This document shows, one piece after another, positions 43,592 through 48,412 of a stretch of DNA of 64,000 nucleotides; the stretch's first letter is position 1; each line of letters starts with the position of its first letter. The notes under the pieces were generated by a model. It saw only the letters and a program-made list of their open reading frames with translations. It made no database searches and had not been told where the DNA came from. The translations under genes and the position numbers were made by a program. Source of the DNA: Ignavibacteriaceae bacterium (GTDB lineage: Bacteria > Bacteroidota > Ignavibacteria > Ignavibacteriales > Ignavibacteriaceae); NCBI GenBank assembly GCA_008933765.1, contig WBUK01000002.1, positions 124,001-188,000 of the forward strand, read 5' to 3'.

Positions 43592-43851
43592 TATTCGGGG
43601 TGCTTTCATGTCATTTTAATTCTTTGTTTTACGCATTTTTCAATTCTTCTTAAAGTTATATAAGACCACTTGTTAGCACCTCGCTAATACTATTTGCATA
43701 CCGGGGGGAATATCCCTTGCTACAATTCAGAAATTCTTTGATTATTGGCTGAATATTAGTTAATTTAATATCCCTAATAATTATTTTTTTGGGGAAAGTA
43801 ATTAACCACAAAAACGGATACAAATCTAACTTAGATTATGGAGGCATAAAT

Positions 43852-45160: not shown

Positions 45161-45196
45161 GGCTGCCCTGATTAGTCTAATTGGGGCAGCCTTTTT
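45161..45196 (+). terminator. Intrinsic terminator after the glutamate dehydrogenase gene
   Basis: Stem GGCTGCCC / GGGCAGCC (8 bp, perfect) with inner pairing ATTAG/CTAAT in the loop, followed by five T. It begins 22 bp past the stop at 45138. Confidence 0.92.
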
Positions 45197-45229: not shown

Positions 45230-48200
45230 ATGATGTCCTCAGCCGATCAACAATCGAGATTCTCTGCTACTCTTGAAGAACGCAACAAAGAAATTAATTT
45301 TCTGCACGAACTTGAAGAACTTCTGCACGACCCAACCCTTCCGAAAGAAGATATTTTTCAGATTGTAATAACTAAAATGAAAGATGCCTGGCAGTTTGGC
45401 ACTATTTGCGAAGTGAGACTGCGCTACCGCGACAAAACATTTGACACAGGTGGTTACATAGAAGATATGCCTTATTTGAGCGCTGACCTTATTGCAGGCG
45501 AAAAGATAGTGGGTGATATTCAGGTTACCTACACTGCTGAGGCTCCTGAAGCGGAGATCGGTCCTTTCCTTAAGCAGGAAAAAAGGTTGCTGGATACCAT
45601 TGCGTTCCGGCTTAGTGATTACATCTACAACCAACGGCTAAAGAAAAAATTAGCAAGTAAAAAAGTAACCGAATCACTTCCCGATAAAACCGAATGGCGG
45701 ATTGTGATCGATATGATCAGAAAAACCGACCCTCCGCTTTTTATGCGCCTTCTAAGAAAGATGCTACACCAACTCAACTGGAAAGGCGTCGAGGAAGCCG
45801 AAATGCTGCTTGCAGAATTAAGCATTGACCTGAAAGGCGTTGAAGAAAGGGGAACAGAAGATGAAAACCGACCCCTTCAAAAAAGAATTATCAGCAATTA
45901 CGACGATTACATCTCAGCAATTCTAAAGTTGACGAGCGAAAATTTCACCGAAGAAGAGATTCTTTGGAGGGTTCAAAAATGGATTCAGAATGATAACACC
46001 AGCGCACTCATTAAAGTGCTGGAGTCGCAAGGCTCGTCTTTGGCTGAAATTTCAGATGCGATAAGAAGGTTTTATCACCTTTCACCCGAAAAAATTGAAC
46101 TTTCGCCCTCTACGGTTAAAGGGCTGCGCGTTTCGCTGCTTCGTCGGTTTATGACTGATGACCTCGAGTTTATACAAATTGCGAAAGATTATGTTAAACT
46201 TACCGATTTCTATAAGCTTATTGACAAGATGATTTTTCTGCCCGGCAGCCACGGTAAGTTAGGGGGCAAAAGTTCAGGGGTATTCCTTGCACATAATATA
46301 TTAAAATCGAGCGTTAACAACGCCGAACTTCCGTTTGAGGTGAAAATACCCAAAACATGGTATCTTACTTCCGACTGCATTTTACACTATATTCAGTTCA
46401 ATAATCTGGAAGAAATTTACGAACAAAAATACCGTGATTTGGAAGAAATCAGGTTAGAGTATCCGCAGGTGATGCAACTTTTCAAAGAAGGGCAGTTTCA
46501 GCCTGATATAATAAAAGGGCTTTCTCTTGCACTTGATGATTTTGGCGATACACCGATAATAGTCAGAAGTTCCAGCCTTTTGGAAGATCAATTAGGCGCT
46601 GCTTTTTCGGGGAAATATAAAAGTTTGTTCCTTGCCAATCAGGGGACGAAAGCTGAAAAACTGAACGCTTTGATGGATGCAGTTGCGGAAGTTTATGCCT
46701 CGACATTTGGACCCGACCCGATAGAATACCGCACAGAGAGGGGATTGGTCGATTTTCACGAAGAAATGGGCATTATGATAATGGAAGTGGTGGGTACCCG
46801 TGTGGGTGACTATTACTTCCCCGCATTTGCCGGTGTGGCTTTCAGCAATAACGAGTTCCGGTGGTCACCCAGAATTAACAGAGAAGACGGTCTGCTTAGA
46901 ATTGTACCGGGTTTGGGTACCCGGGCAGTTGACCGTGTGAGCGACGATTACCCGATTCTGATTGCACCGGGGCAACCACAACTTAGGGTAAATGTAACAA
47001 TGCAGGAATCGGTGAAATATTCCCCGAAAAAAATGGATGTGATTAACCTGAAAACTAATCAGTTCCAAACCGTAGATGTTGATGCATTAATTAAAGAAGT
47101 TGGGATTGAGTATCCGCAAATTAACAATATCGTATCTGTTATCTCAAATAACATGTTAAGGCCGCCAAACCCGATACAGGTAGATTATCAGGAGGATGAA
47201 TTTGTTGTTACATTCGACGGGATGCTGAATAAAACGCATTTCCTGCAGAAAATGCACACTATTTTGCAGATACTGCAGAACAAATTCAGGGTTCCTGTTG
47301 ATGTAGAGTTTGCAAGCGACGGTAAAGATTTCTATCTTCTTCAATGCCGCCCTCAAAGTTTTACAAAACAGAACACTGCCGATGTTATTCCGACAAACGC
47401 ACCGGCAGACCGTATTTTCTTTTCCGCCTCAAAACACATTTCAAACGGAAGAGTACCGAAGCTGCGGTTTATCGTTTATGTTGATCCTGACGCATACACT
47501 TCACTTGGAACCAAAGAAGAGATGCTGGAAGTGGCATCTGTTGTCGGAAAGTTGAATAAAATGCTCCCACGGCGGAAGTTTGTGCTTATGGGTCCCGGGC
47601 GGTGGGGTAGCCGGGGGGATATTAAGCTGGGCGTCAGCGTTACTTATTCACAGATTAATAACTGCGCAATGTTGATTGAAATAGCCAAACAAAAAGGGAA
47701 TTATAAGCCCGATCTTAGCTTTGGAACCCACTTTTTTCAGGATTTGGTTGAATCTTCAATCCGTTATCTGCCCTTGTTTTTGGACGAAACAGAGTCTTCA
47801 CTTAATGAATCGTTTATAAAAAAATCGCACAACTTATTGACAGATATGCTGCCTGAATTTACCCATCTCTCCAATGTTGTTTTTGTTACTGATATTTCTG
47901 AAGAATTTGACGGTGGTTCACTGAAAGTTTTTGTAAATGCTGAGCAGGAAAAAGCTCTGGCGATTATAATGCCGGAAAGCTATACTGAAATCGACGACAT
48001 CTACGATGAGCCTTCGCCCGCGTTCAAAGAATTGGGTACAAATATTAAATACAACAGAACTGCAAAGTTTATTGAACGGTTTGTGGCTAAAATGGATGTC
48101 GATAAATTTAAAATTGATTCTGTTCTTTATCTTATACCGGCTCATGCGATGGAATCCGACAGAATGCTGCCTGCACTTCTGGTGATTTCTTCGGCTGAAG

Positions 48201-48412
48201 GTGCTTTGCTGGAAGAGTTGAACTCGTATCTGAATGTTTGGAACGACTGCCTGAATGTTGTTGAGTCAAGAGTGGAGGATAACGACTCCGAAAGAGCCTT
48301 TGAATATGTTATTGGCACGGATGCAGATTCAGAATTGACTAAATTTGAAGTAGCGGGTACATACTTGATAAATCAACTGTACCCGCCTGAAAAGAATGAA
48401 TTTTTAAGTTGA
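45230..48412 (+). CDS. GAF-like/PPDK-N (PEP- and pyruvate-binding) domain protein without swivelling His domain
   Basis: 1060 residues. About 1-150 resembles a GAF-type domain (EINFLHELEELLHDP, then FGTICEVRLRYRD). About 340-740 is the ATP-grasp domain of PEP synthase/PPDK: PGSHGKLGGKSSGVFLAHN, IIVRSSSLLEDQLGAAFSG, and DVEFASDGKDFYLLQCRPQS. The C-terminal third has its own conserved block (VLMGPGRWGSRGDIKLGVSV, later LSFGTHFFQDLVESS). I find no TGGxTSHAA-type phosphohistidine motif and no PEP-binding barrel, so it cannot be a complete PEP synthase or PPDK. It may phosphorylate or bind something else with ATP, possibly controlled by the GAF domain. It has its own promoter region after a terminator. 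Confidence 0.75.
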   Translation: MMSSADQQSRFSATLEERNKEINFLHELEELLHDPTLPKEDIFQIVITKMKDAWQFGTICEVRLRYRDKTFDTGGYIEDMPYLSADLIAGEKIVGDIQVTYTAEAPEAEIGPFLKQEKRLLDTIAFRLSDYIYNQRLKKKLASKKVTESLPDKTEWRIVIDMIRKTDPPLFMRLLRKMLHQLNWKGVEEAEMLLAELSIDLKGVEERGTEDENRPLQKRIISNYDDYISAILKLTSENFTEEEILWRVQKWIQNDNTSALIKVLESQGSSLAEISDAIRRFYHLSPEKIELSPSTVKGLRVSLLRRFMTDDLEFIQIAKDYVKLTDFYKLIDKMIFLPGSHGKLGGKSSGVFLAHNILKSSVNNAELPFEVKIPKTWYLTSDCILHYIQFNNLEEIYEQKYRDLEEIRLEYPQVMQLFKEGQFQPDIIKGLSLALDDFGDTPIIVRSSSLLEDQLGAAFSGKYKSLFLANQGTKAEKLNALMDAVAEVYASTFGPDPIEYRTERGLVDFHEEMGIMIMEVVGTRVGDYYFPAFAGVAFSNNEFRWSPRINREDGLLRIVPGLGTRAVDRVSDDYPILIAPGQPQLRVNVTMQESVKYSPKKMDVINLKTNQFQTVDVDALIKEVGIEYPQINNIVSVISNNMLRPPNPIQVDYQEDEFVVTFDGMLNKTHFLQKMHTILQILQNKFRVPVDVEFASDGKDFYLLQCRPQSFTKQNTADVIPTNAPADRIFFSASKHISNGRVPKLRFIVYVDPDAYTSLGTKEEMLEVASVVGKLNKMLPRRKFVLMGPGRWGSRGDIKLGVSVTYSQINNCAMLIEIAKQKGNYKPDLSFGTHFFQDLVESSIRYLPLFLDETESSLNESFIKKSHNLLTDMLPEFTHLSNVVFVTDISEEFDGGSLKVFVNAEQEKALAIIMPESYTEIDDIYDEPSPAFKELGTNIKYNRTAKFIERFVAKMDVDKFKIDSVLYLIPAHAMESDRMLPALLVISSAEGALLEELNSYLNVWNDCLNVVESRVEDNDSERAFEYVIGTDADSELTKFEVAGTYLINQLYPPEKNEFLS

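Follow-up and report, generated by a model that had tools for sequence, protein, structure and literature searches.

The window, a 64,000-nucleotide stretch of contig WBUK01000002.1 from an Ignavibacteriaceae bacterium, contains a gene for an ATP-grasp protein that lies directly downstream of a glutamate dehydrogenase (GDH) gene (Table 1). The latter is assigned by Pfam matches to ELFV_dehydrog (E = 3.3e-69) and ELFV_dehydrog_N (E = 1.9e-53), its length being counted from an internal ATG within an open frame that begins at position 43789 with TTG. A pattern scan of the 91 bp gap between the two genes revealed a predicted hairpin of 14 pairs followed by a T run, and this terminator-like element implies that the pair is not simply expressed as one transcript here.

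Table 1. Features of the GDH-linked ATP-grasp gene and its surroundings, numbered from the first nucleotide of the window.
Feature	Position	Strand	Basis
Glutamate dehydrogenase (GDH), ELFV type, 428 aa	43852-45138	+	Pfam
Terminator-like hairpin between GDH and the ATP-grasp gene (predicted)	45161-45191	+	Pattern scan
Full gene, type A of the family	45230-48412	+	ORF call, 1060 aa, ATG start; orthologues found
GAF-fold sensor domain, residues 10-145	45257-45664	+	3cit structural match
ATP-grasp (PPDK_N) region, residues 304-722	46139-47395	+	Pfam, 5hv6 match, conservation in 93 members
C-terminal conserved block (residues 723-921), interpreted as a diverged swivelling domain	47396-47992	+	AF2 model, VIA matches
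GPGRWGSRGD motif, residues 788-797	47591-47620	+	Conservation across family members
SFGTHFF motif with candidate phospho-acceptor His834, residues 830-836	47717-47737	+	H834 in 93/93 members
Degenerate nucleotidyltransferase-like C-terminal tail, residues 936-1052	48035-48385	+	NTP_transf_2 in orthologues

The window protein displays a single confident Pfam domain, PPDK_N (residues 344-722, E = 7.5e-57), the weak scores obtained for eIF3h_C and DUF5638 being taken as chance matches, and NCBIfam models place it near PEP synthase over the ATP-grasp half only, far under their cut-offs. In the full-length AlphaFold2 model (mean pLDDT 82), the N-terminal region adopts a GAF fold (3cit, Z 13.0, r.m.s.d. 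2.3, 126 aligned residues), no Pfam GAF model firing on the protein, and the ATP-grasp region superposes on 5hv6 with a Z of 23.5 and an r.m.s.d. of 3.2 over 288 aligned residues. The preliminary description, which was exact in the coordinates of the open reading frame, had proposed a GAF-PPDK_N layout lacking the PEP barrel; the layout was borne out by fold and by Pfam, respectively, and no Pfam match to a PEP/pyruvate-binding barrel was obtained anywhere in the full-length protein. The window protein thus possesses the PPDK_N ATP-grasp domain with catalytic lysine and arginine by which PEP synthase and PPDK are recognized. Across 93 family members, K347, R446, E693, Q705 and R707 are conserved, the first four being invariant wherever aligned. 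In RPH, Lys22 and Arg117 are important for catalysis, the key positions being Lys22, Arg117 and His825 (PMC4844700), and in our reading of the motifs Lys22 and Arg117 may be equivalent in position to the family ATP-grasp residues.

The region following the ATP-grasp domain had been singled out for its apparent conservation around GPGRWGSRGD, which is real and includes the FGTHFF block. Among 91 aligned members, G788, G790, R791, W792, G793, D797, L800, G801, E817, S830, G832, H834, F835 and F836 are invariant. In the 93-member alignment, D797, E817, S830, G832, H834, F835, F836 and the GRWG motif are invariant, which for GRWG is in part a product of the G.GRWG filter used to collect the members and for H834 and the other residues is not. 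The sole member failing this filter (L138:7908-10868) carries APGRWGTRD and SLGSHFF; it is a type B protein (described below) encoded away from GDH, and still keeps the latter motif.

The same region had been described as devoid of a phosphohistidine (swivelling) domain, a statement with which profile methods agree and which the predicted fold calls into question. No Pfam family, PF00391 included, matched the block even at an E-value of 10, and profile-profile comparison (hhalign) with 31 canonical swivelling domains gave a probability of 0.4%, a forced global alignment faring no better and leaving the histidines unpaired. The canonical GGxTSH loop is absent from the block of the family, with S.G[ST]HFF in its stead. 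By contrast, the isolated block yielded a confident AlphaFold2 (AF2) model (pLDDT 91, pTM 0.90) that appears swivel-like, with the invariant histidine at the expected place. Foldseek retrieved nothing significant for this model (best E 0.084), and VIA-align gave weak matches with a best Z of 5.4, the range of 4-5.4 being under the level that is safe alone. They include the C-domain of LD-carboxypeptidase (6uuk, Z 5.4, r.m.s.d. 4.1, 127 aligned) and RraA (1j3l, Z 4.6, r.m.s.d. 4.0, 126 aligned), together with, as a whole-domain match, the additional domain at the C-terminus of Staphylococcus aureus pyruvate kinase (3t05, Z 5.0, r.m.s.d. 3.4, 106 aligned), as well as, over the whole length of the block, the swivelling domain of RPH (5fbu 756-867, Z 4.5, r.m.s.d. 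4.0, 110 aligned) and the phosphohistidine domain of PPDK (5jvl 375-510, Z 4.0, r.m.s.d. 3.8, 119 aligned). Most of the top two dozen matches are swivelling beta/beta/alpha domains or folds classed with them.

Compared by eye, the order of elements in the block (strand-strand-helix-strand-strand-loop-[ST]H-helix-strand...strand-strand) is that of PEP synthase, and H834, located in the first turn of helix 833-841 of the window model, starts the same helix as the PEP synthase phosphohistidine. The full-length model could be aligned with RPH (5hv3, Z 26.6, r.m.s.d. 4.2) and PEPS (2ols, Z 26.1, r.m.s.d. 3.4) over 368 and 339 residues, respectively; since both values exceed the 288 residues aligned for the ATP-grasp region alone, part of the block sits at the place of the swivelling domain in these enzymes. 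Judging from these models, the C-terminal block is likely to be a cryptic and strongly diverged phosphohistidine domain. When the block was sought outside the family, all strong matches in Acidobacteriota proved to be located in ATP-grasp-sized frames or fragments. Weak partial matches in two frames of 570-590 residues (G391:C120:19041-19313 and G420:C55:19072-19329) are possibly remote relatives.

Proteins of this family, annotated in sequence records only as 'PEP/pyruvate-binding domain-containing protein', were found in 57 of the 59 genomes related to the window and in 79 of 199 sampled Acidobacteriota genomes, full-length members also occurring in several Bacteroidota classes and in Parabacteroides. 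Three architectures share a common core composed of the ATP-grasp domain and the C-terminal block. In type A, to which the window protein belongs, the core is preceded by a GAF domain and usually followed by a nucleotidyltransferase at the C-terminus. Type B carries two N-terminal receiver-like domains, with Response_reg matches in this region at E-values of 1e-6 to 1e-7, the second domain retaining the acidic pair (ED), the D and the K. Type C, absent from the lineage of the window, consists of the core only (~580 residues) and is often encoded in one operon with type A, overlapping its start by a few bases. A type C paralogue lies between the GDH and type A genes in L038-L043, L110, L112, L141 and L149. 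Among open-licence papers, none was found that describes the function of the family or links it to GDH.

The receiver-domain and core-only relatives, the nucleotidyltransferase tail and the linkage to GDH had not figured in the preliminary description. Within the 59 genomes nearest to the window, which are not independent of each other, a GDH gene was located no more than 5 kb away for 80 of 97 members of the family, as compared with about 0.8-1% expected under random placement. Conversely, 92 of 122 GDH genes are accompanied by a member at this range. This association, the strongest result of the analysis, was also seen in Acidobacteriota and in Parabacteroides, with variable order and orientation and involving two distinct GDH families. 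Repeated one-to-one clusters, for example GDHA-B-GDHA-B-GDHB, provide each GDH with its own partner (L046, L133). Same-strand upstream pairs (n = 69) mostly combine type B with GDHA (37), type A with GDHB (18) or type C with GDHB (11), and for 35 of 38 type B proteins the GDH partner belongs to the same subtype as that of the nearest relative. For some members (L143, L144, L126 and L146, among others), no GDH was found within the stretch examined around the gene. Taken at the level of the family, a partnership with GDH is highly probable. The position of the gene beside GDH across two phyla, far above chance, makes a dedicated on/off regulator of GDH the probable function, and the window protein itself is likely to act in this way; gene neighbourhood indicates the partnership and not which reaction occurs.

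Other genes were observed in these clusters. Genes for a PAS histidine kinase and for a LuxR-type response regulator occur inside GDH-B clusters (L045:10722-12825, L051:6322-8394 and L054:9117-10337), and that of L054 also contains an ammonium transporter gene (PF00909). The Parabacteroides record NZ_OY725790.1 (L058), labelled as a plasmid, holds two gdhA genes, ruvC and a type B gene, and may on account of this content be chromosomal sequence. BT1971 was set aside as a candidate, being a catalase.

Genes of neighbouring metabolic steps are commonly linked, and the ATP-grasp family serves small molecules in PEPS, RPH, PigC and HpeHI (PMC12167813). The window protein could accordingly be conceived as a small-molecule dikinase or ligase of glutamate/2-oxoglutarate metabolism, phosphorylating a metabolite that GDH makes or uses and binding its substrate through the C-terminal block. 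However, a dedicated copy for each GDH isoform, the sensor domains and the matching of subtypes would be unusual for a metabolic step, and no known acceptor domain was detected by profile, which renders this explanation unlikely.

The C-terminal tail of type A proteins suggests a different activity. NTP_transf_2 scores above its cut-off in the tails of orthologues L009, L020 and L022, and the GS..SDID motif is present in most type A proteins of both phyla. GlnE and GlnD are nucleotidyltransferases in nitrogen metabolism, and the orthologue tail (GS..DID) might modify GDH as these enzymes modify their targets; alternatively, GDH might be regulated by binding, the ATP-grasp domain serving in either case as an ATP/ADP sensor rather than as a phosphotransferase. 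The GDH linkage is equally compatible with such a regulator, and the reading of the block as a swivelling domain lacks profile support. In the window genus and in L008, however, the tail keeps its secondary structure and has lost the GS..SDID active site; in the window protein itself, Pfam detected no NTP_transf_2 and no GS..DxD active site was found in the tail. Types B and C, which are equally linked to GDH, have no nucleotidyltransferase tail. Nucleotidyl transfer is therefore not the common activity of the family, and the invariance of K347, R446, E693 and Q705 suggests catalysis rather than mere sensing by the ATP-grasp domain. Regulation by binding or nucleotidylation is, on this evidence, a rather improbable account of the family.

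The preliminary description had also considered a dikinase half-reaction with a separate carrier. Such a half of a two-component dikinase, similar to HpeHI or phenylphosphate synthase, would be in keeping with the structural match between the ATP-grasp region and stand-alone HpeI (9goj, Z 19.0, r.m.s.d. 6.0, 289 aligned), but would depend on a histidine carrier encoded elsewhere. The genome of the window, about 90% complete, encodes only two PF00391 proteins, PPDK (924 residues) and a PtsI-sized protein (590 residues), and no histidine-carrier gene adjoins the window gene, the conserved neighbour of which is GDH. A separate carrier is thus disfavoured, and this arrangement is very improbable.

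From the computed domain layout, the intact ATP-grasp residues, the invariant histidine and the subtype-matched linkage to GDH, we infer a regulatory partnership in which H834 would be phosphorylated and GDH would be the acceptor. The ATP-grasp domain would bind ATP and phosphorylate His834 on the diverged swivelling domain formed by the GRWG/GTHFF block, which would then pass the phosphate on to the GDH of the adjacent gene, GDH thereby taking the place of the acceptor domain that the protein lacks. Gating by the N-terminal GAF domain, or by the receiver domains in the sister proteins, would make GDH activity track nitrogen or energy status. GDH as the acceptor is the simplest reading of an ATP-grasp domain with its residues kept, an invariant histidine in a swivel-like block and a missing acceptor domain. 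The chances that a phosphorelay proceeds through H834 appear evenly balanced, and the complete proposal, a sensor-gated and ATP-driven regulator that passes phosphate via H834 to GDH, is put forward as tentative, its chances falling slightly short of even. Against it stand the lack of profile and Foldseek support for the swivelling domain, the terminator-like hairpin between the two genes of the window and the members with no GDH in the stretch examined. 'Sensor' and 'kinase', initially offered as separate readings, are compatible with each other.

GDH catalyses a step of ammonia fixation or release in cells and is a main point of ammonia entry and exit in the Bacteroidota of the gut and in many bacteria of soil and sediment. 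Among open-licence papers, none was found that names a dedicated GDH regulator in these groups. Yamamoto and colleagues reportedly described in 1987 a reversible inactivation of GDH by ammonia in vivo in Bacteroides fragilis, the enzyme responsible not being identified; if the proposal is correct, the family could contain this missing enzyme, which is offered as a lead only. The linkage to GDH makes GDH control testable by a single deletion. Should the chemistry hold, swivelling-histidine dikinases would act on proteins and not on small molecules only. It is conceivable, if somewhat doubtful, that these proteins represent widespread protein-directed dikinases, combining an ATP-grasp domain and a cryptic swivelling histidine with GDH as acceptor and GAF or receiver domains as input.

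Among known systems, GlnE and GlnD resemble the family in the nitrogen setting and in the NTP_transf_2 tail of the type A orthologues, whereas the tail is degenerate in the window protein and the main body is unrelated. GarA/OdhI-PknG of Actinobacteria likewise provides post-translational control of GDH by phosphorylation (PMC2881912, PMC5448819), a likeness in function only, as it consists of an FHA adaptor and a Ser/Thr kinase unrelated to the window family. In HpeHI, the ATP-grasp and swivelling parts are split over two proteins (PMC12167813); two-component kinases such as HpeHI and phenylphosphate synthase share with the window family an ATP-grasp domain unfused to an acceptor domain, but their swivelling domain resides on a partner that also carries the acceptor site, while in the window family the swivel-like block is fused to the ATP-grasp domain and the neighbour is GDH.

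In PEPS, PPDK and RPH, phosphate is transferred from ATP bound to the ATP-grasp domain to the swivelling histidine and from there to the acceptor domain (PMC4844700). RPH, the best overall structural match (5hv3), has an ATP-grasp domain followed by a C-terminal swivelling domain, an order that the window protein would share if its block is such a domain; in the window protein, however, no rifampin-binding acceptor domain intervenes and the block directly follows the ATP-grasp domain, the NCBIfam RPH model reaching 28.5 bits against a cut-off of 999. With PEP synthase and PPDK (PF01326-PF00391-PF02896), the family shares PPDK_N with its conserved catalytic positions and, perhaps, a swivelling domain at the corresponding position; it differs in having no PEP/pyruvate barrel, in the replacement of GGxTSH by S.G[ST]HFF, in its sensor domains and in its location beside GDH. 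A plain PEP synthase or PPDK was rejected, as the barrel and the canonical swivelling domain are absent and NCBIfam scores are far under cut-off; the lack of these two domains places the window protein outside PEPS/PPDK as defined. The window protein may nevertheless work like the first half of these enzymes.
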